This document shows positions 3,856-61,832 of a stretch of 64,000 nucleotides of DNA, in pieces. Numbering within the stretch: position 1 is the stretch's first letter; each line of letters begins with the position of its first letter. This DNA is from Tubulanus polymorphus (taxonomy: Eukaryota; Nemertea; Palaeonemertea; Tubulaniformes; Tubulanidae). A program made the translations under genes and the position numbers. Where the stretch lies: positions 1,180,501-1,244,500 of the forward strand of contig NC_134032.1 of the NCBI RefSeq assembly GCF_964204645.1, given 5' to 3'. The notes beneath the pieces were generated by a model, which had not been told where the DNA came from, made no database searches, and saw nothing but the letters and a program-made list of their open reading frames with translations.

Positions 3856-6114
<2,259 letters not shown>

Positions 6115-10676: not shown

Positions 10677-13469
10677 TGTTTGATTTTCGCCGCGCACGCA
10701 GAACAATCCGTGGCCTCGGTTTCGGTAGGTTTTTTTATACGAAATTAAAAAATAAATAATTTTAAACTATCAAAAAGACGATGAGTTGACTTTTCTCTTT
10801 TCTATCGAAAAGACTGTGTTTCTTGTGAATATGATACTATGAATATGTTCTGAATTTTGGATGATATTTCCTTATTTCTTTAGGTAACGATATTCTTTTT
10901 TTAGCTAAAATTCCCACTTACTTATCAATTAATTAATGAATTTGAATGGTCATTTATCATCTGAATTGACAAACTTTCCATATTTTTCCTGCGATATTAT
11001 TTTAATTGCGTGCAAATAAGCGGAGAACATACAAACACCTGTCGCTCTTTGCCAGACGATACTAGAAATATCCCGATTCAAATTACTCTTTTAATGCTTA
11101 TTCTCTTATATGAAAATTGTTTGGTTCAATAGTGTCTGAGCAGATTTCAGAGTTTGAGAATTTTCCGCGGCATCCGGCCCGCAAATCGGTAATTAGTTCG
11201 TCCACTACGGCCGTTCGAAGACTCTGGCAAGCGAGTATTATGTAGTTGGTTTCATTAGGGAGAGTTTTATTGTATCCCGGACGAAGAATGGTCGACCTTA
11301 ATAGGATGTTTAAGCGTTCATGTGCTGCAACGTTGATGGTAACTTTGGATTAATGCACAATTTTGGAAAATAAAATTTAATTTGCTTGAAATTCTTTCTG
11401 TGGCATGTGAGTCTACCGCTTTACGGATGGTAAAACATTCCGCTGACAAATGAGTTCTATCAAAAATAGCTTGAAAATCATTATAAGAATAAGATCCTCT
11501 TAAATAGACCTTAGACGAAGATATAATTATTCATATACAACGAAATCGTGCTAAAGAATGAACGAAATTCGGCAAAAAATGTCTGCATTACTCGCATGCC
11601 ACAGTAAGATGACTAGGCTGGGTTTGATGTCAACCGTATAGTGCTGCCGCTATGAATAACGATGGCGGGATTTCTGTGAACTAAAATACTGGCGCATATT
11701 TACTGCCGGAATATAAAGTACATTATTACGTAGAATACGGACCAGTTTGTCGTCTAATTCTGATTAAATATGATATTATGAATACGTCCTTAATTTTTGA
11801 TGATATTTCCTTTTTTTTCAGGAAACGATATTCAATTTTTTCTTTAGCTAAAATTCACTTACTTATCAATTAATTAGTATTATATACAGAGTGAATTATT
11901 CATTTACATTTTTGAATGATCATTTATCATCTGAATTGACAAACTTTCCATATTTTTCCTGCGATATTATTTAAATTGCGCGCAAATAATTGGTACATAA
12001 AAACACCTGTCGCTCTCTGCCAGACGATACTAGAAATATCCCGATTCAAATTTACTCTTTTAATGCTTATTCTCTTATAGATATTGCATGGTTCAAACGT
12101 TTCAGAAAAGTTTTAAGAGTTTGAGAACTTTCCTCGGAATCCGGCCCGCAAATCGGTAATTAGTTCGTCTACTACGGCCGTTCGAAGACTCTGGCAAGCG
12201 AGTATTATGTTAGTTCACGTTTTACCCGCTATCGTTATACATAGGGGCAGCACTAGACGGTCGGCTCGGAAATCGCGCACTCAATTCAATCGCTAATTCT
12301 TTATTTACAATGAAACTATTCTCTCGATAAGAATTCATGAGATTTCTTGTCCTCAAAAACACGGGAACCTCAGTGTTTTTAACCTTGCTGTGGCCGTGGC
12401 CACCGACCTTCACTACGTCCTACAACCACCTACTGACACTATAATAGGCCCGTAAGCAGGTAAGTAAAATAATTCATGAGATTTCATGTCTTCCAGGGAC
12501 ACAAGGGGGGACCTCACGCAGTGAACTCGCAGACACAGGGGGCCTCACTCAGTGACCTCACATACACAGGGACCTCACTCGATATCAATAACCACTTTCA
12601 CTAGGCCATGCTAGCAGGTTACCATCAGCTGGCTTGACCAGTTTCACGATCTTACTCCCAGTCCCACAGCAACTCGTATCAGCGGAGTTCACCCGGTCCT
12701 GAGAATGGCCGGTTCGCGGAGCTCCGTATACTGCCTATACCAAAGAGCTCGCGTGAACCACCCACCCAGTCACGTAGTCGTTATTTTACGTCGAAATTGC
12801 CGACTGGGGCTCAGTCGGCACTTTAACCACTCGGTACTCGGCAACTACTCATCCGATTTCAATAAATAAACTACCTACACTGACCTGATGTTGTTATCTT
12901 TTCATTGTTAACACTCCAAAGAATATATTTGAAGTTCAAGTGGCTGGAAATTGCCTCTATAAATATTTTAGTACCGCTTTTGTTTTACTAAAAAACGGTT
13001 CCTCGCGAGACTCACCCGCATGAAAAAATCAATATCTTAGCAACACAACAATAGATACCGCTTTGCGCGACTCGTGGATATTTGACAAGTCATGAAAAAT
13101 CGTTTCATACACAAAATACGATGACAAAATGACTAAATAAACACAACAGTAAGAACAAGAAAGATCAGAGGTTTGCAATGATGGTTTATTTTTTGAAATC
13201 GGATGAATGAGAGCTGAGTAGTGATGATATAATTAGAGTTGAATTAAAAAGAATTTAAAATCACCGCGTATATGGCTTCCGCGACTTAGTGTCAGGGGTC
13301 GCGTTAGCGGTATACCACTGACACTAAGGTTCTCAGTGAACAGCGGAGGTTCGTGAAAATAATAATCTGTTAATCCAGCAAACAAGTGCTGAAGACTGCT
13401 GATTACTTTTGCTTAAGCCTTTACCATGTCTTAGAGTAATCGTAGGTTTTGCTTCCCTTATCAACCAGT

Positions 13470-14090
13470 CCCTCAACCTCTCACCCCATCCTCCCTCAAC
13501 CTCTCACCCCATCCTCCCCAACCTCTCACCCCATCCTCCCTCAACCTCTCACCCCATCCTCCCCCAACCTCTCACCCCATCCTCCCCCAACCTCTCACCC
13601 CATCCTCCCCCAACCTCTCACCCCATCCTCCCTCAACCTCTCACCCCATCCTCCCTCAACCTCTCACCCCATCCTCCCTCAACCTCTCACCCCATCCTCC
13701 CTCAACCTCTCACCCCATCCTCCCTCAACCTCTCACCCCATCCTCCCCCAACCTCTCACCCCATCCTCCCCCAACCTCTCACCCCATCCTCCCTCAACCT
13801 CTCGCCCCATCCTCTCACCCCATCCTCCCCCAACTTCTCACCCCATCCCCCAACCTCTCACCCCATCCTCCCGCAACCTCTCACCCCATCCTCCCCCAAC
13901 CTCTCACCCCATTCTCCCTCAACCTCTCGCCCCATCCTCTCACCCCATCCTCCCCCAACCTCTCACCCCATCCTCCCCCAACCTCTCACCCCATCCTCCC
14001 TCAACCTCTCGCCCCATCCTCTCACCCCATCCTCCCCCAATTTCTCACCCCATCCCCCCAACCTCTCACCCCATCCTCCCGCAACCTCTC
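13470..14090. repeat. 21-bp minisatellite (CAACCTCTCACCCCATCCTCC)
   Basis: About 29 tandem copies of a C-rich 21-bp unit inside element copy L. Because 21 is divisible by 3 and the unit has no stop codon in the forward frames, it produces overlapping heptapeptide-repeat open frames (SPHPP-type) that are artefacts. The same array is at 23699-24470 in inverted orientation in copy R. Confidence 0.95.
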
Positions 14091-14221
14091 AGTCAGTTTC
14101 CTTGTTAATGTGATTTCAATTTTATATTTCAGGATCGTGGGTAAACTTCATCATGAATACTGGATGTGGACTTCAACTGAAATTCATCAGTTTAACTTCT
14201 TCAGTCAACCTCTGGACTTAC

Positions 14222-23565: not shown

Positions 23566-23698
23566 AGTTGACTGAAGAAGTTAAACTGATGAATTTCAGT
23601 TGAAGTCCACGTCCAGTATTCATGATGAAGTTTACCCACGATCCTGAAAGGAAAACCTGAAATATAAAATTGAAATCAGATTAACAAGGAAACTGACT

Positions 23699-24470
23699 GA
23701 GAGGTTGCGGGAGGATGGGGTGAGAGGTTGCGGGAGGATGGGGTGAGAGGTTGCAGGAGGATGGGGTGAGAGGTTGCAGGAGGATGGGGTGAGAGGTTGC
23801 GGGAGGATGGGGTGAGAGGTTGCGGGAGGATGGGGTGAGAGGTTGCGGGAGGATGGGGTGAGAGGTTGGGGGAGGATGGGGTGAGAGGTTGGGGGAGGAT
23901 GGGGTGAGAGGTTGAGGATGGGGTGAGAGGTTGGGGAGGATGGGGTGAGAGGATGGGGCGAGAGGTTGGGGAGGATGGGGTGAGAGGTTGGGGGAGGATG
24001 GGGTGAGAGGTTGAGGGAGGATGGGGTGAGAGGTTGGGGATGATGGGGTGAGAGGTTGAGGGAGGATGGGGTGAGAGGTTGCGGGAGGATGGGGTGAGAG
24101 GTTGGGGGAGGATGGGGTGAGAGGTTGGGGGAGGATGGGGTGAGAGGTTGAGGATGGGGTGAGAGGTTGGGGAGGATGGGGTGAGAGGTTGGGGGAGGAT
24201 GGGGTGAGAGGTTGGGGGAGGATGGGGTGAGAGGTTGAGGGAGGATGGGGTGAGAGGTTGGGGATGATGGGGTGAGAGGTTGAGGGAGGATGGGGTGAGA
24301 GGTTGAGGGAGGATGGGGTGAGAGGTTGGGGGAGGATGGGGTGAGAGGTTGGGGGAGGATGGGGTGAGAGGTTGGGGGAGGATGGGGTGAGAGGTTGAGG
24401 GAGGATGGGGTGAGAGGTTGGGGAGGATGGGGTGAGAGGTTGAGGGAGGATGGGGTGAGAGGTTGAGGGA
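23699..24470. repeat. 21-bp minisatellite, inverted counterpart
   Basis: About 37 copies of the G-rich complement of the 21-bp unit. Irregular 12-bp and 18-bp units are interspersed. Two minus-strand open frames of 269-284 codons crossing it are artefacts of the stop-free repeat. Confidence 0.95.
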
Positions 24471-30969: not shown

Positions 30970-31020
30970 AGCATTCATTCATTCATTCATTCACTCATTC
31001 ATTCATTCATTCATTCGCTC
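30970..31020. repeat. (ATTC)n microsatellite
   Basis: About 11 units of ATTC with one ACTC and a terminal GCTC variant, preceded by GAGAGAATAAAGC, a plausible retroelement tail. Confidence 0.9.
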
Positions 31021-31230
31021 GGGTTTTTAAGAAATCGACATCATGTTTAAAATTCCAATATTTTCTATAGTTTTCAGACGCATCTTGCAGAGAGGGCATG
31101 ATTTTGGGTGAAATGTGCGAACTTTAATTGCTCGAACGAATAATTAAAAAAAAAAACTATTCCTGAGCTTAGATAGGACAACCCGATAATATTTGCCGGA
31201 TCAATGCGTTTAGACTGTTTAAAACGTTTA

Positions 31231-34200
31231 TTAACGAAAGCGTTTTGTTTTTGCTCGTATGGATTTCATATCGATAGTCAGTATTGTGTAAAGTAGGGGA
31301 TTGAGGGACGAGTTGATCGGTAGGAAAAGAACGGCCAGCCAAGCCGCCACCTGATTCGGTATTTCGACTCGTAACACCGCGCAGAACTGAACGATAATCA
31401 ACGGCAGCCAGCAAAATAAATTACAAAGATTTATCACCAAACTCCTGCGTGCTAAAATCAGTTCGGTAGGGTCGATTCTACCCGAACCGGACCTGCTTCC
31501 AGAGACGAGTCTGTACATCTGCGCATAAGTCGTCATTATCGTAGCGAGTATGAAGGTGTTGAATACGGCAAAAATTGCGAAGGAATATTGCCAGGCGTTG
31601 ACGTCAATTGATATTAAATTCATAGGCAAACAAACTCCAGTTTTTCCGTAGAATTTAATACCGAAATAAGATAATTCTGACAACGGCAATATGGAGATTG
31701 TACTTATAGTAACCCAACACACGCCACAAATAATGCACACGTATCTCGGTGATGTAATCGGGCTTCCAGAAAATGGATTAACGATATTTGAAAATCTATG
31801 ACGTGTTAGAATGAATAGAAACGTCAATGAGCCTTCGCAAGAAAGAGTCACCGTAACTCCAGCGAAACTGCACAATGAACTGTCCGTCCAAGTTTCCGAA
31901 TTCAGGAAATAAACTCCTTTAAAAACGTAATCCGCGCCCGCGATCGAAAACAAATAAATCGACATGAGAAAATCACAAGCTGCGATGTTAATAATTAGGA
32001 TGTCGGAAGATGTGTTGCGCTTTTCGGAGGATGAAAGTCGAATTGATCGAAGACGAAATAAAATGACAATTGTGTTCGCGAAGAGACTGAACGCGGCGAT
32101 GACCCAGATGATAGCTCTGAGGACTGTGTTACCCATCAGATCAGAACAAGAGGAAAACTGATCAGCTTTAGGGAGGCACCGGTCGACATTCGGAGCCATG
32201 CAGCAAAATTTGTAAGCGTCAGACGATAGAGATACTAGCGATGTCAGATTGATGAAAACTTCTCTTTCTGTGGAAATGAATTTAGAATTGTTGGTTATAT
32301 CGAGAATTCTAAGTTTATTTAATCCTGAAAAAGCATATCGTGAAATATTATGGATTCTGTTGCTGCTGATATTCAACGACTGTAATGCAGATAAACCTCT
32401 AAACACATTTCTACCAAGCAGCAATAGCGAAAGTCCTTGAAGGTTCAGAATTTGTAATGACATTAAATCTCGAAAGGTATTGTCGTCTAAATGGCGCAGT
32501 GGATTTGCAGTTATCAATAATTCTTTTAAATTATACAAACCGATGAACGTGTTTGCGGATAATGACGTTATGTTGTTGTATGTAAGATCTAATGTATGCA
32601 AATTATGCAGGTTTGTGAACGAGTTCGGTAAAATATGAGACAATTCGTTGGAAGAGATGTTCAGCATTCGAAGATAAACGAATGAAGAAAACGTCGATTC
32701 ATTGAATCGAAATTCGTTTTTTGACAGAATTAAAACTCGAGTTGATTCCGAGAAAAGACCAGTAATATTTGTTAAACCGGCATTCGCGCAATCAATCAAA
32801 TGACCTTGGCATCTACAGCCCATCTGACACGTGACGTTACAGAAAGCCTCGTCATCAATTGTGAATTTACAATTTACGACACCATCACAAACTTCAGATT
32901 GTGGAATACATCGATTTTCGTGGCCACATTTAAACATTCCTGGACAAGCAAATGTCTCACAGTTTTGTTCATCTTCTGAATTAGGACAATCTGATTGACC
33001 ATCGCACACTTGGCTGATCGGTATACAGTACGATGCTGGACATTTTACAGTACCAGCTGGGCATTCAAATTCTTCACATCTCAACACGTGCTCAAGATTT
33101 CTACAAACTGGGTAACCATTCGTCATTCTTTCTAGAATACATCTGTGACGCCCTGAATAACAGTGAGGAGAATTGAAAGAACATCTTTGTTCATCTGATT
33201 CCGTACAGAGATTTGTGAAGTTAGTTGTGCAGTAGTTTTCATTATTGCACTGAACAGTAGGATTCACTGTAATACTAGTTGTTGTTACTAATTCATCTTC
33301 TTCGAGGCTTCCACTACAATCCACGACACCATCCTGATACAACTGAGAACTGATACATTCTCCACTGTTACACTGGAACCCCTGACACAATTCAGTAGTG
33401 CATCCCATTTCATCTGATCCGTCTTTACAATCAGTGACTCCATCACATCTGTTAGCCCTACTGATACATTGACCACTTTTGCAGCCAAATTGTTCCGACA
33501 AACACGGGGGATGAAAACAAGATTCCTCATCCGAACCATCCACACAATCTTGTACGAAATCACAAAAACCACTTATTGATATCACCCGACCATCATCGCA
33601 TTGAAACTGACTGTGTAGATTTATATCCGTACAATCGAGTTCATCTTCACCGTGTTGACAGTCGTGTCTGGTATCACATACGCGATGGTCGCTGATACAT
33701 CTTTGATCGTTACATTTAAACTGCCTCGATTTACAACCGCTTATAGAAGCTGACTCTTCATCAGTTACATTATATGAACACAAAACAGAATGCGCTGTAT
33801 CTGTCGCATTATCAAAATATTTCATCATCCATTTAACTGATTGAATATAAGTATTTTCATCTCTAGTGATTATTGGGTTTATAACTTGCAGTCTGTCATT
33901 AGACGTTATCGTTAGTACAGAGCCATATTGATGTTGATATTGAAATGCTGTTATCAAATTTAAGATATCTTTTTCAGTATTACTGTTAATACTACCTACT
34001 TCGGCCCGGACGCAATTACACATCTCTGTCGCAGTTTTTATATCAAGACCTCGATGTTTGTTCCATTGCGTCAGTATTTCATAGCATTGTCTGCCTATGC
34101 TTACCAAACCAATCGTACAGCTCGATTCATTGGAATCAATATCTTGAAATGTATTTTCCAGTATTAGAAATGTGTCGTTTTTGGTTATATTTAACATTGT

Positions 34201-37200
34201 TGCTGTTCTATTTTCGTAATCAATTCTTTCCGATTCGCAAATGAAACTCGTATGAACCTCTTCAATTTTGCAGGGGAATCGAACCCAGTTCGCTGATCCT
34301 CGTGGATTACTCAGTATCATCGCTGTACACGGCATATTGACGTCATTTATTGGTTGCTTTCTGCTTGAAGATATCAATCCTTGAACAACTTCTGGTATCG
34401 TGTCGTTATTTGTAGGTTTATACCACTCTGTGTAGCTCAATGGTTTCCCATCAGTCCACGTGTAGTAACCAAAAGTAGGCTAAAAGTTTAAGTTGCAAAT
34501 TCATGATTAAGACATCGAAATGGTATATAAAATTCTTTTGACGAGATAGATTTAGAAATTAAGAATTTTACCTGCATTTTTAATCCAATCATCATTATGA
34601 GCGCTTTCTGTGAATAGGCATTTAGAAGAAGTTCTGTAGCGAATAATCTTTTGATGGAAATCATTTCCTGTTGTGAGTTGATACTGAGTAGATGTCCCGC
34701 GTACTTCTGTCTACAGTATATTTCAGCGTTCTCCCAATTCAGACGTTCATCTCTGATGTATTTTACGCATGAAATTCCCGAATCTAGAAATTCCGATTGA
34801 CAGACATTTTCAAACTGTTTAACCGGTAACGACTGTTCTAATGTGTATTGTATTTGAAATATCGGGATGTAATGTTTCACCTCAAACCACAGAGTGTCAT
34901 CTATTAAACTATAAAACACAAGTCCCGTTATCGCGTTATTGTCACATATTTTATGCTCATGTGTGATTCTTCTAGTATCCGATTCATATATCGATTGTTT
35001 GTAGATTATCGGATCATTGTCTCTCGCACCCGATTTCGTGCACAGGACCCTGCCTATGTATTTGATTAGAAACCGGTGGTAGGAAAATTTGCCCCGCCTG
35101 ACCACTACAGGATAGTTATAATATAGTGGTTGATGTTGATACTCAGATGATCCCGGATAATTTGGTGACTGCAACAACCCGCATTCATCTTCGAATACGA
35201 TCCCACCCAGTATTTCTATAACGGCAGATTTCAATTTTTGACATTTACTCCGAAGTTCAACCATCAAATAATAACTCCAGAATAAACTCGCGGTTCGCAT
35301 TTTCACGGTGTTTAATACCAGGCTGTTATTGAGCGACTGACTACTCAAGCTAACGTACGTACCACATGACCCGAATGGTATAGCACCCTGAAAACATCGG
35401 TCGATTTGATATTCGTGTTCTGATAATACGTAAATGTTTCTCAAAGGTAGGCGTCGGTTTTCGGGTGTAATCACGAGACAGTGTGACGTCATATCGACCT
35501 GCTGTTCTCCCTCCCGGAGGATGTACCCGTCACAGTCGGTAGGACGAAATCTGAGATATGATTCTTTTTCAACGGTTAACTGATCATTCCACTTATACGC
35601 GTATGCTGCTACAGTTACCGACCGACCGGATGTAATCAGACTGACGACGTTACGGTCGTACGGGGCGTATAAACGAGGACAATACGGACCGTATCGTCTA
35701 GCCGTGAAATTACCACCGTCGAATATGTAAAATCCAGCTCGCTCGCAGTTCTCTGATAAAACTGTTAGTCCCATATTCTCTTCATAAATATCAACTTTCC
35801 ATTTAAACTCGTATCTAGTGATGCGATAATTTACAGATACTTTTTTTTGTTTCGGAAACAGCCAGTTTGGCGTCAAAAACCGCAGCTGGTTCACGGGGAC
35901 CTAGAGTTCGTCAATAATAAGTATATCAGACAGATTTTTGATAATACATGTTATTCCCGTACGGGGTAACATAATTACAGAGGTTATACTCACCCGACGG
36001 TTGTTGACCTTGATATCGTCTATCGAAATAGATTCCATTTTATAGCTTATTTCAAATCTTACATCATCGTGAACTGTTGTTTTTAAAACGCACAGTATGA
36101 CGAGAAAGCCGTCAGATTTGACACTCAGTGATTGCAGGTAGTTGTGACCGAGTAAAACATCAGTTCCTACAACGAGTAGCCCTTCTAGTTTATATACACC
36201 AATGACGTCACCGGATGTGACGAGATCACGTGTCCAGTTGAAGACGACGTACTGTAACACCTGTCCTGTGATAGACCAGCAGTGTAAGTGTTTTGATCGA
36301 GTTGTTACGTGTAAACTGTTGTCATCGGGAATGAGCACTCCCGACTCGTTATTAGAGATCTGAATCAACGGATTAGCGACGTTCCAATCTGACATTTTAT
36401 ACAATTGGACTAAAAGCAGTGACTGCACAGTCGTCTTCCGTAAAACGAATACAGCTTTGTTTGTTTTAGTATAAAATGATGAAGGTGGATGTCCACATTG
36501 TTGTGGTATTAAAGCGAAAGGATCACTGCTGGTGTTCCATCCGTCGTGGAGTATAATGGACACCGATGATGATTCCCCAAATCGATAGAATTTGAAATCG
36601 ATATCAATTAACGTAAGATTCATCGCATAACCTCGCGGCATACCGCTCCACTCAACAAACAACTTACAATTACGTAATTTATGAATCGCGAATTTATAAC
36701 CCCGCTCAGCTTTTAGCCGCTCTAATTTTAAATCGTTTCTTGAACCGTCGTGGAAAATATTTATTTGACCTCGCCCATAACGATAAATGACATAAACGCG
36801 ACTACCTCGCGCTCCAGCGACTTTACTCCTAAACATCAACGAGATCGAATCGTCACGGCGGATTTCATGTTTTCCATCACCGCACAATCTGTTATCGGAC
36901 TCACTGACGAGAAGGTAGTTATCACTACAGAATATTGAAAGCTCGATGTTGTGGTAAACTAGGACGTGAAAAGTCCCCGGTAAAGAGCTGTTGATGAACC
37001 ACCGACATTCAACACCGCGCGATAACGAAGGGTAATTCGGCGAAACGATGTAACCGGACGTAGAATCTAACGGGTACCACGTATTGTTACAAGACGAACT
37101 TACCGTCACAAACGACTCCTCGATAGAGTCTGCTGCGCGATCAGCGCGCGCGATGCGAACTTGACAGACGATCAGCGACGCTGTAAACAGCGCTCTCAGT

Positions 37201-37229
37201 CGCCGCTCCATACCGAACAGCATCGACAC
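31231..37229 (-). CDS. CUB / C-type lectin / LDLa / LRR seven-transmembrane receptor (GRL101/relaxin-receptor type)
   Basis: Three coding exons joined by GT-AG introns of 92-93 bp, all phase 0: 37229-35994, 35900-34572, 34479-31231, giving about 1937 residues. The N-terminus has a signal peptide (start at 37229, or the in-frame Met at 37211). Order: a CUB domain (about 45-165, with SGYIVSPNYP), a divergent region, a second CUB-like segment (about 650-760, with LLQSPNYPG), a C-type lectin domain (about 780-938, split by intron 2, with GYYTWTDGKPL), a second lectin-like segment (about 976-1090), six or seven LDLa modules (1104-1402; typical CDGVTDCKDGSDE; the fourth has lost its CDG Cys), an LRR block (1404-1600), the hinge YKFCCMAP and 7TM. 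The 7TM part has LTRHRF in place of DRY, NPLLY in TM7 and Cys at the TM3/ECL2 positions. It is a plasma-membrane G-protein-coupled receptor of leucine-rich class; the ligand is unknown. Confidence 0.95.
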
Positions 37230-37639
37230 GATACGAATTATGCTCGGCTGTCCACAGATTTTGAAGTTCTGTTTATAAATGATGTAGAACTTTAATTGAC
37301 TGCAGAAATCAAAGTTTGTACCACTCAGAAATTTAAGGATCCGAATATATTTTTCAGTCCATCATATTTTGCAAAGGCGATTTTGGTATCATTTACTCGT
37401 TTAGTCATTATTTCACGTTTTCCCTGACTCGAGGGTATCTATTTCTCAGTAATTACCATCAGTAAATATATGTGCAACAATTTCAGCTCGTGGTTTTACG
37501 CATCGTAGATATCGATGTCCAATTATATATTTTGAACCTTTCGTCGTTGTACTGCGTGTATATCGAGCACACCAATCGGACTAAACTCACGGCTGACAAC
37601 TACGAAACTATCAAACTTACTTAAATCTTATCGACGTCT

Positions 37640-39493: not shown

Positions 39494-39577
39494 TTGAAGC
39501 CCTGAAACGACATTACGAATTACGTTTTACCAAATACGTTTTACGTTTTACGAATTACAAATTACTAGTTACTTGTG

Positions 39578-40512
39578 TTCCGTTGTACCCAGTGACATTT
39601 AAACAACTTGTGTTCTTTGGTACCCAGTGATAATTAAACAACTTGTGTTCCGTGGTACCCAGTGATAATTAAACAACTTGTGTTCCGTGGTACCCAGTGA
39701 CATTTAAACAACTTTTGTTCTGTGGAACCCAGTGATAATTAAATAAAATGTTTTCTGTGGTACCAAGTGATTAAATGTAAAATAACATGTGTTCTGTGGT
39801 ACCCAGTGACAATCAAACAACTCGTGTTCCGTGGTACCCAGTGACAATTAAACAACTTGTGTTCTGTGGTACCCAGTGACAATTAAACAACTTGTGTTCC
39901 GTGGTACCCAGTGATAATTAAACAACTTGTATTCTGTGGTACCCAGTGACAATTAAACAACTTGTGTTCCGTGGTACCCAGTGATAATTAAACAACTTTT
40001 GTTCTGTGGAACCCAGTGATAATTAAATAAAATGTTTTCTGTGGTACCAAGTGATTAAATGTAAAATAACATGTGTTCTGTGGTACCCAGTGACAATCAA
40101 ACAACTTGTGTTCCGTGGTACCCAGTGACAATCAAACAACTCGTGTTCCGTGGTACCCAGTGACAATTAAACAACTTGTGTTCCGTGGTACCCAGTGATA
40201 ATTAAACAACTTGTGTTCTGTGGTACCCAGTGATAATTAAACAACTTGTGTTCCGTGGTACCCAGTGATAATTAAACAACTTGTGTTCCGTGGTACCCAG
40301 TGATAATTAAACAACTTGTATTCTGTGGTACCCAGTGACAATTAAACAACTTGTGTTCCGTGGTACCCAGTGACAATCAAACAACTCGTGTTCCGTGGTA
40401 CCCAGTGATAATTAAACAACTTGTGTTCTGTGGTACCCAGTGACAATCAAACAACTCATGTTCCGTGGTACCCAGTGACAATCAGACAACTTGTGTTCTG
40501 TGGTACCCAGTG
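39578..40512. repeat. 35-bp minisatellite
   Basis: About 26 copies of a 35-bp unit (ACCCAGTGATAATTAAACAA, CTTGTGTTCCGTGGT). A variant block (ACTTTTGTTC...AAATGTAAAATAAC) occurs at 39711 and again at 39995, a 284-bp higher-order duplication of eight units. A remnant of the array continues at 40841-40860 after the foldback element. Confidence 0.95.
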
Positions 40513-40517
40513 ATCGG

Positions 40518-46132: not shown

Positions 46133-48868
46133 CTTTATTTCAGGGAAAATTTTACAATTAGTTATATTTGCTAAGGTCAAAAATTGACATAATAATAGCA
46201 AAGTTATAAATATTTAATATTGAAAAGACCGCTATGTAGAAAAAATACTATTACAATTATTAAGAACAAAACAATAAGAATAATAATAATAATAATGATA
46301 ATAAAAATAATGATAATAATAGCCCGTAGCATGATTGTTCTCTCTCTCTTGTCTCTTAGGTGATGCGCTTGCTGCTCGTAATTTCGAGTATTTATATTTC
46401 TACAAATTCTACGTCGGATGCGTTTTCAGGTAAAGACATTTCATACTTCGCTGCGATGACATCGTAGGGGGATTTCAATTCAGTTACGACATCATAAAGA
46501 CGATCGTGATATTTTTCAGCGGCGTTTATGGCGTGTTTCTAAATTTGTGTACGATTCGACTGAAAGCTCGCGAAAATACGAACTTCATTTCTAATGAGGA
46601 ATTCATGGAATCGATCGCGAAGGTTCGTATTAAGGCTGAAATAATCGATACCTTGTTTTCTTCGCTCTGCTGAGCTTAAATGTTGACCCGGCCGGCCGCC
46701 TATCTACCCTATACATTACTTTTTTTTAAATCGTGATCAATTTCACCATAACAGACCCGGCCGCTATAGAAATGAACTGTTTACAAATTTTATCATATTT
46801 TACAAAAATGACCCGGCCGCTGCGGAGAAACTAGGTATCATTTTTGTTTAGCCTAAACTTCCTTGAATACCGATTCAGGACATACACCATCAGCCTGAAT
46901 CCAGTCGATTCAACGTTTTAATATTATCAGCTTCAATTAGTTCATTTTGAAAAAGAGCCTAGAATGGAATTCTCAGCGCAAAAACTATCGAATTGTCGAT
47001 GTTACAATTATTTTAATTTCTTTCAGATTTTTACCGCATTTCTATCAATATTTGTATTTGGAAACACATTTCCAGCAACCGGAATTTTCTGGTGAGTTTA
47101 TGATAATAATAATTATTTATATATTCAGCCTAAAATCCATCAGTTGCCTATGATCTGAGTTGATCTTGATCACTGATCTGTGTTGATCTTGATCACTGAT
47201 CTGAGTTGCATACCATGGTTCCCACAGAACAGGGAAATTGGAAAAAACTTGGGAAATTTTGAAATGATAATTCCCAACTGGGAATTATTTCAAAATTCTC
47301 AAGTTTATACACCCAAGAAATATTTGGGAATTTGAAAAAATTTTCCTCAAATCAAGGAAATATTTGGGAAATTCATTTTCGGGAACTTTCTTCAGCTATT
47401 TCCTTTGAAAATCAACATCAACCAGTCACCACTGAAATGTTGATTGTAGCACGATGATATGTGTTCATTTGCATTTGGGAAAATTGGAAAATCACCCATG
47501 AAATACTTGGGAATTTTGAATTCATATAACTGTGGGAGCCATGTGCATACAATCTGTTAAACCGGGTCTAAGTTGATCTTAGTCAGTAACCTGACTGTGG
47601 TTTAGTTTCACGATGGGATATTTTCACAAACCACTGAGTTGGTGTTGAAAGAAACCACTGAGTTGGTATAAGCCCATCCGATTATAAAAAGCTTACCACC
47701 AACGATTAGGTTACTAACTAAGTTGATCTGGACCACTGATCTGTTGATCCGGGTCTAAGTTGATCTGGACCACTGATCTGTTGATCCGGGTCTAAGTTGA
47801 TCTGGACCACTGATCTGTTGATCCGCGTCTAAGTTGATCTGGACCACTGATCTGTTGATCCGGGTCTAAGTTGATCTGGACCACTGATCTGTTGATCCGG
47901 GTCTAAGTTGATCTGGACCACTGATCTGTTGATCCGGGTCTAAGTTGATCTGGACCACTGATCTGTTGATCCGCGTCTAAGTTGATCTGGACCACTGATC
48001 TGTTGATCCGGGTCTAAGTTGATCTGGACCACTGATCTGTTGATCCGGGTCTAAGTTGATCTGGACCACTGATCTGTTGATCCGGGTCTAAGTTGATCTG
48101 GACCACTGATCTGTTGATCCGGGTCTAAGTTGATCTGGACCACTGATCTGTTGATCCGCGTCTAAGTTGATCTGGACCACTGATCTGTTGATCCGGGTCT
48201 AAGTTGATCTGGACCACTGATCTGTTGATCCGGGTCTAAGTTGATCTGGACCACTGATCTGTTGATCCGGGTCTAAGTTGATCTGGACCACTGATCTGTT
48301 GATCCGGGTCTAAGTTGATCTGGACCACTGATCTGTTGATCCGGGTCTAAGTTGATCTGGACCACTGATCTGTTGATCCGCGTCTAAGTTGATCTGGACC
48401 ACTGATCTGTTGATCCGGGTCTAAGTTGATCTGGACCACTGATCTGTTGATCCGGGTCTAAGTTGATCTGGACCACTGATCTGTTGATCCGGGTCTAAGT
48501 TGATCTGGACCACTGATCTGTTGATCCGCGTCTAAGTTGATCTGGACCACTGATCTGTTGATCCGGGTCTAAGTTGATCTGGACCACTGATCTGTTGATC
48601 CGCGTCTAACCCGTTCCCTCTTGGGTCTGACTTACGTTTAATCGCTGAAATACATTATTTCAGGATGGTTGTTAATTTCGGCGCTGTTACGTTCCTGTCG
48701 TATATCTCGTGGTCGCAACACCGTACAATCATCACTACGGCAACGATGAGTCCTCCGCATCTACTGCACTCGTCGCCCCGGCAACAGTCTCCACCTCCTC
48801 CCTCTCCCCCGCAGCAGCAGCAGGTTACTATCGACAACCATTCCAATACTCTTAACGCTTCCTCTTGA
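41534..48868 (+). CDS. TMEM241: TMEM241 orthologue (nucleotide-sugar-transporter-like, Vrg4-type)
   Basis: Twelve exons assembled by frame and splice phase: 41534-41602, 41678-41724, 42695-42778, 42867-42948, 43025-43102, 43817-43943, 44885-44963, 45266-45300, 46360-46429, 46520-46622, 47027-47091, 48664-48868, totalling 347 codons. All introns are GT-AG with matching phases. Diagnostic blocks are NKYVLTILKFTYP, FQGWQTLVGA, SGSKALSKLPIPIFLVLH and FEYLYFYKFYVGCVFSG, which align with vertebrate TMEM241. The protein is a multi-pass membrane protein of the drug/metabolite-transporter fold related to yeast GDP-mannose transporter Vrg4, expected in the Golgi; substrate is not shown by the sequence. 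A Pro/Gln-rich tail of about 40 residues follows the last helix and is longer than in vertebrates. The introns carry many MITEs and minisatellites. The start is the only ATG with the right phase upstream of NKYVLT. Confidence 0.87.
41873..42199. mobile_element. piggyBac-like MITE 1 (TTAA target)
   Basis: TTAA duplications at 41869-41872 and 42200-42203 flank termini CCCTTTCAGTG and its inverted copy CACTGAAAGGG. The interior holds CACCGCGGTG and CACCGCACTGCGGTG palindromes. CCC...GGG ends plus a TTAA target fit the piggyBac superfamily. It lies in TMEM241 intron 2. Confidence 0.88.
42261..42350. mobile_element. CCAGTTCCACAG palindromic MITE
   Basis: GTCCAGTTCCACAGTTGTGAG pairs with CTCAGAACTGTGGAACTGAG. 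It is shortened in the middle relative to other copies. It lies in TMEM241 intron 2. Confidence 0.8.
42375..42535. mobile_element. GGGCCCGGTTTCATAGAC MITE
   Basis: 161 bp with termini GGGCCCGGTTTCATAGAC and GTCTATGAAACCCAGCCC as inverted repeats. The interior is non-coding. It is a single copy in this window, in TMEM241 intron 2. Confidence 0.75.
43164..43441. repeat. 93-bp minisatellite, locus 3 (inverted)
   Basis: Three copies of the unit found at 1165 and 3480, in reverse orientation (AGAGTTAACCAGTGGATAGTTGACG), in TMEM241 intron 5, 40 kb from the other arrays. Confidence 0.9.
43991..44260. mobile_element. piggyBac-like MITE 2 (TTAA target)
   Basis: 270 bp between TTAA at 43987-43990 and TTAA at 44261-44264. 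Termini are CCCTTTCAGTGCG and CAGCACTGAAAGGG. It has the same interior palindromes as 41873-42199 in opposite orientation. It lies in TMEM241 intron 6. Confidence 0.9.
44995..45216. repeat. Double hairpin element (AGTTTCAC...GTGAAACTGG)
   Basis: Two adjacent units: 44995-45107 and 45108-45216. Each pairs TAAATCGATTTAA-type arms and ends GTGAAACTGGTCCCTGG; the second begins GGGCCTAGTTTCACAAA. The units are inverted relative to each other over their AATCGATTTAATTTCTTCATT portion. They occupy TMEM241 intron 7. Confidence 0.75.
45602..45965. repeat. ~364-bp near-perfect hairpin
   Basis: The left arm (from GGTACAAAAGTCTTATTAGG) pairs with the right arm (to CCTAATAAGACTTTTATCAG GTACC), meeting around a short loop near 45776-45790. 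The innermost 45 bp or so (CATGGAAACATATTGTTAAA and its complement) are nearly perfect. It lies in TMEM241 intron 8. A partly similar hairpin lies at 51113-51290. Confidence 0.85.
46087..46131. repeat. (AT)n microsatellite
   Basis: About 22 AT units in TMEM241 intron 8, followed by ATAATAATAATGATAAT simple sequence near 46278-46322. Confidence 0.95.
46632..46854. mobile_element. GATACCTTGTTTC MITE, copy 2
   Basis: Same family as 19583-19802. It sits in TMEM241 intron 10, immediately upstream of the segment that was duplicated together with exon 11 to 51681-52089. Confidence 0.85.
47581..47718. mobile_element. AGTYAGTWACCT MITE, copy in TMEM241 intron 11
   Basis: The ends AGTCAGTAACCTGACTG and GATTAGGTTACTAACT form inverted repeats. 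The body shares GGTTTAGTTTCACGATGGGA, the CAAACCACTGAGTTGG repeat and CCGATTATAAAAAGCTTACC with the copies at 25533 and 53062. Confidence 0.8.
47719..48608. repeat. 37-bp minisatellite in the last TMEM241 intron
   Basis: About 24 nearly identical 37-bp units (TCTAAGTTGATCTGGACCAC, TGATCTGTTGATCCGGG). A G-to-C variant (CCGCG) marks units at 47823, 47971, 48156, 48378, 48526 and 48600, spaced by exact multiples of 37 (148, 185, 222, 148, 74). Confidence 0.95.
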
Positions 48869-60674: not shown

Positions 60675-61832
60675 GGTCCAGTTGATAGCCACAGCCTACT
60701 ACAACGCGGGGCTAGAATATGCTCCAGGCACAGATTCAAACCGTATCCACTCGATGTATTCCATAATGGGTTATAGCCACAGCCTACTACAACGTGGGGC
60801 TAGAATATGCTCCAGGCACAGATTCAAACCGTATCCACTCGATGTATTCCATAATGGGTTATAGCGACAGCCTACTACAACGTGGGGCTAGAATATGCTC
60901 CAGGCACAGATTAAAACTGTATCCACTCGATGTATTCCATAATGGGTTATAGCCACAGCCTACTACAACGTGGGGCTAGAATATGCTCCAGGCACAGATT
61001 AAAACTGTATCCACTCGATGTATTCCATAATGGGTTATAGCGACAGCCTACTACAACGTGGGGCTAGAATATGCTCCAGGCACAGATTAAAACCGTATCC
61101 ACTCGATGTATTCCATAATGGGTTATAGCGACAGCCTACTACAACGTGGGGCTAGAATATGCTCCAGGCACAGATTCAAACCGTATCCACTCGATGTATT
61201 CCATAATGGGTTATAGCCACAGCCTACTACAACGTGGGGCTAGAATATGCTCCAGGCACAGATTAAAACTGTATCCACTCGATGTATTCCATACTGGGTT
61301 ATAGCCACAGCCTACTACAACGTGGGGCTAGAATATGCTCCAGGCACAGATTAAAACTGTATCCACTCGATGTATTCCATAATGGGTTATAGCCACAGCC
61401 TACTACAACGTGGGGCTAGAATATGCTCCAGGCACAGATTAAAACTGTATCCACTCGATGTATTCCATAATGGGTTATAGCCACAGCCTACTACAACGTG
61501 GGGCTAGAATATGCTCCAGGCACAGATTAAAACTGTATCCACTCGATGTATTCCATAATGGGTTATAGCCACAGCCTACTACAACGTGGGGCTAGAATAT
61601 GCTCCAGGCACAGATTAAAACCGTATCCACTCGATGTATTCCATAATGGGTTATAGCCACAGCCTACTACAACGTGGGGCTAGAATATGCTCCAGGCACA
61701 GATTAAAACTGTATCCACTCGATGTATTCCATAATGGGTTATAGCCACAGCCTACTACAACGTGGGGCTAGAATATGCTCCAGGCACAGATTCAAACTAT
61801 ATCCACTCGATGTATTCCATAATGGGTTATTG
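60675..61832. repeat. 88-bp minisatellite
   Basis: About 13 copies of an 88-bp unit (TAGCCACAGCCTACTACAAC, GTGGGGCTAGAATATGCTCC, AGGCACAGATT, CACTCGATGTATTCCATAAT). Period from successive GCTCCAGGCA at 60721 and 60809. Units are more than 95 % alike. Variants (ATTCAAAC/ATTAAAAC, GCCACAG/GCGACAG) are distributed in blocks. Confidence 0.95.

Follow-up and report, generated by a model that had tools for sequence, protein, structure and literature searches.

A relaxin-receptor-like gene with CUB and C-type lectin modules in Tubulanus polymorphus and its probable place in a large, mosaic receptor family

What might a gene do that joins CUB, C-type lectin, LDLa and leucine-rich repeat (LRR) modules to a seven-transmembrane (7TM) domain of the relaxin receptor type, and does it stand alone in its genome? 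The gene that raises this question lies in a stretch of 64,000 nucleotides from the nemertean Tubulanus polymorphus (NCBI RefSeq assembly GCF_964204645.1, contig NC_134032.1, positions 1,180,501 to 1,244,500), which is called the window here and within which all coordinates below are given unless another contig is named. As judged from sequence, the gene is one of roughly 300 copies found on several chromosomes. On balance, these copies probably constitute a lineage-expanded family of type C LRR-containing G-protein-coupled receptors (LGRs) of the relaxin-receptor/GRL101-like kind that detects diverse external ligands. More important than the domain order are how large this family is, how its copies are laid out and how they vary as mosaics, together with the loss of an acidic residue from the third transmembrane helix (TM3).

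Gene structure

There are three long reading frames between positions 37223 and 31231 of the minus strand, and they can be joined via two GT-AG introns that are both in phase 0.

35994..37223, minus strand: exon 1, encoding a signal peptide (about residues 1-29, by inspection), a CUB domain (about 43-150) and an orphan segment (150-410)
35901..35993, minus strand: intron 1, 93 bp, phase 0, GTGAGT...TAG
34572..35900, minus strand: exon 2, encoding an orphan segment (411-630), a CUB-like segment (640-770, unproven) and the first half of the first C-type lectin domain (CTLD1)
34480..34571, minus strand: intron 2, 92 bp, phase 0, GTAAAA...TAG, splitting CTLD1
31231..34479, minus strand: exon 3, ending in the stop codon and encoding the second half of CTLD1, a CTLD2-like segment, six LDLa modules, the LRRs, the hinge and the 7TM domain

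A preliminary description of this locus had proposed one minus-strand gene with frame-consistent exons, this module order and two introns of about 92 bp, and all of this is confirmed on re-reading. Its protein of 1937 residues is slightly too long, having been counted from base 37229, where a GTG codon lies two codons upstream of the first in-frame ATG (37223). The protein predicted from that ATG has 1,935 residues.

Additional support for the joined frame comes from paralogous loci in the same assembly, where intron 1 is in phase 0 at 30 of 33 loci and intron 2 at all 33, as modelled by a splice finder weighted towards agreement with the window protein. The nearest relatives of the window copy are three copies on contig C8, with 96.2-96.7% DNA identity over 31010-37471 or 37551. 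Comparison with each of these gives a ratio of nonsynonymous to synonymous divergence (dN/dS) of 0.28-0.29 at a dS of 0.064-0.067. The window copy is under purifying selection, and because of these ratios the joined frame is regarded as selected rather than as a product of chance. Chance or mis-joined exons are ruled out by the splice sites common to the paralogues together with this selection, and the gene is confirmed as real.

The C8 copies also have flanking blocks in common with the window copy (89-99% identity) and are, on this evidence, segmental duplicates of its region. An in-frame TAG in their exon 2 had made them candidate pseudogenes, for which the simple splice finder had picked a shifted pair of sites; the TAG proved to be the retained intron-1 acceptor, followed by a 6-base deletion. 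Among themselves, the three copies (L018-L020; C8:2350584-2360571, 3163896-3173883 and 3561170-3571154) are about 99% identical over some 8.2-8.4 kb and lie 0.4-0.8 Mb apart, which may be due either to recent segmental duplication or to the assembly itself.

LDLa, LRR, hinge and 7TM regions

The half of the protein expected to carry the signal contains the following features.

32833..33744, minus strand: LDLa region, six modules that pass Pfam (5.5e-38)
32239..32826, minus strand: leucine-rich repeats, Pfam LRR_8 (3.9e-30)
32191..32214, minus strand: hinge YKFCCMAP, read in the sequence
31264..32142, minus strand: 7TM core, Pfam 7tm_1 (2e-21) and RXFP1 (2.9e-50)
31792..31800, minus strand: TM3 motif H-R-F (residues 1747-1749) instead of D/E-R-Y, aligned with EKY of RXFP1, ERW of the luteinizing hormone (LH) receptor and DRF of the relative L033

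The LDLa, LRR_8 and 7tm_1 matches are far above the Pfam cut-off. Together with the RXFP1 match, they bear out the LDLa modules, LRR block, hinge and rhodopsin-like 7TM domain of the preliminary description and its suggested kinship with LDLa-LRR-7TM receptors; of its six or seven LDLa modules, six pass Pfam. Of all solved structures, RXFP1 (7tmw) is the best match to the hinge-7TM part, followed by the LH receptor (6.1e-27). The predicted protein shows both features by which a type C LGR is recognised, namely an LRR-hinge-7TM part that is most RXFP-like and LDLa modules that precede the LRRs. The presence of multiple LDLa modules is the sole feature that speaks for type C2 (GRL101) rather than type C1 (RXFP/LGR3/LGR4).

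There is no acid of the canonical class A D/E-R-Y motif in any of 31 aligned family members, which carry H (22) or Q (9) at this position, nor in five further members outside the alignment (L003 Q, L030 H, L034 H, L035 F and L037 Q); the TM3 stretch was not located in L036. The arginine is kept in all 31, and the residue after it is F in 28 and Y in 3. The canonical NPxxY motif of TM7 is present as NPLLY in the window copy and is kept in 29 of the 31 members. Two intron-rich relatives of the family, L033 and L038, have D at the TM3 acid position (DRF). Loss of this acid suggests altered coupling. Perhaps the family couples unlike the intron-rich relatives, with raised basal activity, through a different transducer or with the help of a co-receptor, and the difference between every member read and these two relatives offers a handle on signalling change during the expansion.

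CUB, CTLD and orphan segments

The outer half of the protein begins with the CUB domain and includes two lectin-related segments.

34231..34817, minus strand: CTLD1 (about residues 772-936), interrupted by intron 2, Pfam Lectin_C (1.6e-8)
33754..34146, minus strand: CTLD2-like segment (about residues 965-1095), degenerate and unproven, family profile against NKG2-D with E 0.01

A Pfam search of the joined protein had been proposed as a check on the modules. It succeeds for LDLa, LRR and 7TM, but neither CUB nor Lectin_C is listed when the whole protein is scanned at E up to 0.5, and these two are detected solely with exon- or domain-sized queries. With such queries, CUB reaches an E value of 0.00093 in the window copy, just under the curated Pfam cut-off, and is matched in all 19 family members scanned (E up to 0.1; best 8.5e-7). 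The family profile of exon 1 matches cubilin (5.7e-12) and MASP1 (2.7e-7), with the matches confined to profile positions 21-110. CUB-domain membership is thus supported by profile across the family. The Lectin_C match improves from an E value of 0.019 in exon 2 alone to 1.6e-8 on the spliced segment, and intron 2 itself is therefore supported. The CUB domain and the one clear C-type lectin domain of the preliminary description accordingly stand.

The second CUB-like segment and the divergent second lectin named there are present as segments, with profile scores too weak to establish domain identity. One CUB model matches the CUB-like segment in 2 of 19 members (best E 0.031), and a profile search of this segment finds nothing significant among solved structures. 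It shares an SPNYP start with CUB1 (profile comparison, 21 columns, E 6.6e-5), which is the only internal repeat found by profile comparison among eight ectodomain segments; CTLD1 and the CTLD2-like segment compare at E 0.059. There is no Pfam match to the CTLD2-like segment in the window copy. A lectin-like Pfam model, UL45, matches it in 5 of 19 members (best 0.01), and an unrelated syntaxin model also matches in 4 of 19 (0.01). The exon-1 family profile search reveals no known domain in residues 150-405 or so, and residues 420-640 have no significant match among solved structures (nothing below E 0.17). AlphaFold predictions on two single window sequences returned mean pLDDT (predicted local distance difference test) values of 30.7 and 29.8.

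Calcium-dependent sugar-binding C-type lectins carry an EPN or QPD motif, and a WND motif is also part of their sugar site. Neither EPN or QPD nor WND is present in CTLD1 of any of the 31 aligned members. At the first site there is KPTN in 14, QPTN in 7, EPTN in 3 and other variants in the remainder, and at the second WVR in 30 and WIR in 1. Classical calcium-dependent sugar binding by CTLD1 is unlikely on these grounds, and the carbohydrate binding that had been suggested for the receptor is not supported in its classical form.

Size and distribution of the family

When exons 3, 2 and 1 were used to search the same assembly (268 Mb, 77 contigs), 43, 95 and 102 matches were scored out of 798, 370 and 376 first-look candidates. 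Exact degenerate-codon patterns were also counted. There are 307 exact matches to the exon-3 7TM motif IPNQVAAW, 291 to the CTLD1 motif ANWVRFPC, 273 to the CUB1 motif YIVSPNYP and 209 to the hinge motif YKFCCMAP, and 0 to each pattern read backward as a control. These counts are lower bounds for copies that carry the motifs unchanged, and pseudogenes may be among them. The hinge count takes in the two intron-rich relatives, and other proteins may account for a few of the CUB-motif matches.

The motifs occur together. On contigs C3-C6, where all three motif lists are complete, 77 of the 88 TM7-motif matches are preceded on the same strand by a CTLD motif at a distance of 2.5-5.5 kb (median 2,912 bp), 66 by a CUB motif at 4.5-8 kb and 60 by both, with opposite-strand controls of 0 and 0. 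If the CUB range is loosened to 14 kb, which could catch a neighbouring gene, the latter two numbers become 69 and 62 of 88, with a control of 1. Many copies are found in tandem arrays, such as the 17 copies on C12 at 4.818-4.947 Mb with a spacing of about 7.65 kb.

A total of 38 stretches were fetched, comprising the 17 of the C12 array, the three near-copies on C8 and 18 others. All three exons are matched in order at 36 of them, and the other two are L033 and L038. The first two fetches yielded 33 three-exon loci, of which 28 show no break in the frame over the part read (for 3 of these, up to the fetched edge), 2 have in-frame stops and 3 (L003, L030 and L034) could not be modelled by the simple splice finder. 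The last three are excluded from the alignments and from dN/dS, and the two with stops (L007 and L014) are excluded from dN/dS and kept in the alignments and distances. The last four loci fetched are in no alignment or dN/dS calculation.

The intron-rich pair, L033 (C7:19441300-19448450) and L038 (C7:19450700-19458000), is arranged in opposite orientation, and these are the only copies of their kind among the loci fetched. L033 has the hinge motif of the family, matches to CUB (2.2e-6) and, when approximately joined, to Lectin_C (1.3e-7), as well as LDLa, LRR and 7TM, with 33% identity over LRR-7TM; L038 has LDLa, LRR and 7TM matches and the hinge motif. The domain join is therefore not unique to the window gene, and the expansion is probably younger than the domain order. 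We infer that the expanded family is an intron-poor offshoot of an L033-type gene, and the L033/L038 pair may be its unexpanded sister.

Variation within the C12 array

Sequence variation in the array was measured as identity among 16 aligned members in 45-residue bins, and sequence types were counted among 17 sequences that include the window copy. Four segments vary most.

36414..36818, minus strand: hypervariable segment 1, residues 136-270, array identity 0.55-0.69, 6 types among 17
35781..36143, minus strand: hypervariable segment 2, residues 361-450, spanning intron 1, identity 0.73-0.77, 7 types among 17
34836..35375, minus strand: hypervariable segment 3, residues 586-765, array identity 0.62-0.81, 11 types among 17
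33934..34203, minus strand: variable segment 4, residues 946-1035, array identity 0.74-0.79, 4 types among 17

Identity is 0.91-0.98 in the 7TM domain and 0.86-0.95 in the first CTLD, and the outer blocks at 1-135, 271-360 and 451-585 are fairly conserved (0.77-0.95 and above, with most bins over 0.83). The strongest variation thus lies outside CTLD1, in the segments that surround CUB and precede the CTLD. When a wider set is compared (13 members), the variable segments are again lowest, at 0.38-0.57 in most bins (0.66 at 226-270 and 0.57 at 361-405), and one 7TM bin falls to 0.63.

For the 14 intact array members (91 pairs), the dN/dS values are 0.19 for the 7TM domain, 0.25 for LDLa, 0.28 for LRR and 0.34 for CTLD1. 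The variable parts have values of 0.52 (residues 136-270), 0.56 (361-450), 0.54 (586-765) and 0.57 (946-1095). Positive selection was sought in every segment, and no segment as a whole has dN greater than dS; dN does exceed dS in single pairs, in at most 5 of the 91 for any segment and in 12 of the 41 close pairs for residues 946-1035. The value of dS is itself raised at 136-270 (0.46), 586-765 (0.29) and 361-450 (0.25) versus the 7TM domain (0.16), which is not explained by selection at the protein level.

The correlation of pairwise segment distances among 16 array members provides a test for mosaicism. The segments are lettered such that B is residues 136-270, F is 586-765 and K is the 7TM domain. 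Neighbouring segments correlate (A-B r 0.75, E-F 0.86, I-J 0.78 and J-K 0.69), and distant ones do not (B-K r 0.04, p 0.34; F-K r 0.01, p 0.34; F-H r 0.03; H-K r -0.05). This is the trace expected of recombination or gene conversion between copies and, as far as these distances can be read, it shows that distant segments have been reshuffled between array members.

Possible functions

Strong variation of the outer part between copies would be expected if the receptors recognise many different external molecules. Probably the variable outer segments serve to bind a diversity of such ligands, most likely microbes or their products and next most likely chemical cues. The LDLa-LRR-hinge part would relay binding to the 7TM domain as in RXFP1, and unequal crossing-over and gene conversion among tandem copies would keep the signalling half uniform while they reshuffle the outer segments. 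The suggested immune or gamete role gains circumstantial support from some 300 copies, hypervariable outer segments, a mosaic array and a cluster of similar genes in a resistance region of a snail. Of the external ligands, we infer that those of immunity are more likely than those of chemosensation. A more specific proposal, which we put forward tentatively and consider possible but doubtful, is a non-self repertoire carried by G-protein-coupled receptors (GPCRs), wherein about 300 receptors have reshuffled cassettes, differ between individuals and signal via a modified TM3 switch. If true, an invertebrate would possess an immune repertoire that feeds straight into G-protein or arrestin signalling.

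Several observations weigh against a repertoire for diverse external ligands. CTLD1 is without the classical sugar-site motif. In the wider set of 13 members the LRRs, at 0.65-0.73 per bin, are no more conserved than several outer blocks. Positive selection is not shown, since no segment as a whole reaches a dN/dS of 1, either in the array or in close pairs; the close-pair values for the four variable segments are 0.60, 0.45, 0.63 and 0.87, the last being that of 946-1035. The value of dS is not raised at 946-1095 (0.168 versus 0.164 in the 7TM domain). Relaxed constraint combined with conversion would also give this pattern. The mosaic signal is likewise uneven, in that some neighbouring segments correlate weakly (G-H 0.37, H-I 0.22) and the distant pair B-F is still correlated (r 0.30, p 0.0005). 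Gaps may inflate the distances of variable segments, and the low variation of exon 3 in the array limits the power of the correlation test. Finally, in-frame stops interrupt 2 of the 17 array members, and modelling failed for a third.

The main rival to an immune function is chemosensation, in which the family would detect dissolved or contact cues in sensory cells, like olfactory receptor expansions. Chemoreceptors typically form tandem GPCR families as large as this one. A GRL101-like receptor of the crown-of-thorns starfish is reported to be expressed more in sensory tentacles than in tube feet (PMC6267866). However, the 7TM domain, where chemoreceptors usually vary in the pocket, is the most constrained part here (dN/dS 0.19), and the variation is found in large outer modules; chemosensation is therefore regarded as unlikely, albeit a serious contender. 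Recognition of self and non-self or of gametes, with polymorphic copies marking individuals or mediating sperm-egg binding, would fit the mosaic hypervariable outer segments and the near-identical recent duplicates, but known allorecognition systems occupy single loci, unlike these hundreds of copies spread over several chromosomes, and this reading is improbable.

The closeness of the hinge-7TM part to RXFP1 rather than to the LH receptor among solved structures, and the insulin-like ligand proposed for GRL101 (PMC8286064), would also suit receptors for insulin/relaxin-like peptide hormones with the outer modules as accessories. Some 300 copies with hypervariable outer segments would be surprising for such receptors, and the related (irp-related) LGRs are described in the same passages as having one orthologue of each type in each ambulacrarian species studied (PMC8286064), so that we give this explanation little weight. 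It is similarly hard to credit that the family is mostly a non-functional by-product of runaway tandem duplication. The in-frame stops and failed splice models among the 33 loci, and the common flanks of the C8 segmental duplicates, are what such a process would leave, but 28 of these loci have uninterrupted frames and dN/dS is well below 1 in all segments. The detection of diverse external ligands therefore remains the reading that we favour.

Other features of the window

Part of a potassium-channel-like gene is located on the plus strand at 5239-6114 (Pfam Ion_trans_2 2.8e-23, in two stretches) and probably encodes a two-pore channel. A 23-bp satellite of the TCCCTCAACCTCTCACCCCATCC type is found at 13469-14091 and at 23698-24470, about 10 kb apart and in opposite orientation, and its arrays produce spurious long open frames. 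There are also three long minisatellites (39571-40513, 47718-48609 and 60685-61830) with periods of 35, 37 and 88 bp. The first of these starts about 2.3 kb upstream of the receptor gene ATG, and one of its units is also visible at the margin of L020, one of the C8 copies.

Comparison with known systems

RXFP1, a type C1 LGR, has one LDLa module and is not known to have a CUB domain or CTLD. Its LRR-hinge-7TM part aligns with that of the window gene, from which it differs in having EKY rather than HRF in TM3. The relatives L033 and L038 are unlike the family in their many introns and in the DRF of TM3. Tandem arrays, segmental reshuffling and variable recognition parts are known from snail FREPs, sea urchin 185/333 genes and plant NLR arrays, none of which are GPCRs.

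No description of the CUB-CTLD-LDLa-LRR-7TM order, or of an expansion of such size, was found in open-licence PMC text, which is weak evidence. A survey of bivalve C-type lectins (PMC10140915) does not mention 7tm, G-protein, LRR or LDL in its main text, and PMC11521371 contributes nothing further on domains. Type C LGRs are described as splitting into RXFP-like C1 and GRL101-like C2 groups in the passages cited (PMC11863921; PMC4079206). The window gene resembles GRL101 of Lymnaea stagnalis, a type C2 LGR, in its multiple LDLa modules, LRRs and rhodopsin-type 7TM domain (PMC8286064, PMC11863921). GRL101 is credited in these passages with twelve LDLa modules and six LRRs, with no mention there of CUB or CTLD; in the window gene six LDLa modules pass Pfam.

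The closest described case, likened by description only, is the SudRes2 cluster of Biomphalaria sudanica. According to the passages cited (PMC12297450), it comprises 12 GRL101-like genes, ten of them complete with CTLD, LDL, LRR and GPCR parts, with six more such genes elsewhere, and a CTLD-bearing cluster of 12 was already regarded as notable; the region is associated with resistance to Schistosoma mansoni, and the N-terminal CTLD is what, according to its authors, sets these receptors apart from GRL101. The window gene likewise combines an N-terminal CTLD with LDLa, LRR and GPCR parts and has clustered paralogues, which are the attributes given for a SudRes2-type receptor. Unlike the 12-gene cluster, for which CUB is not named in those passages, the family described here has about 300 copies on several chromosomes, a CUB domain and orphan or variable outer segments, and it is further set apart, again by description, by its three-exon structure and by H or Q in the TM3 motif. 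Some 300 copies with a mosaic ectodomain would represent a different use of the GRL101/LGR scaffold, and they make testable whether lectin-bearing GRL101-like receptors act as non-self receptors, as the association in the snail suggests.

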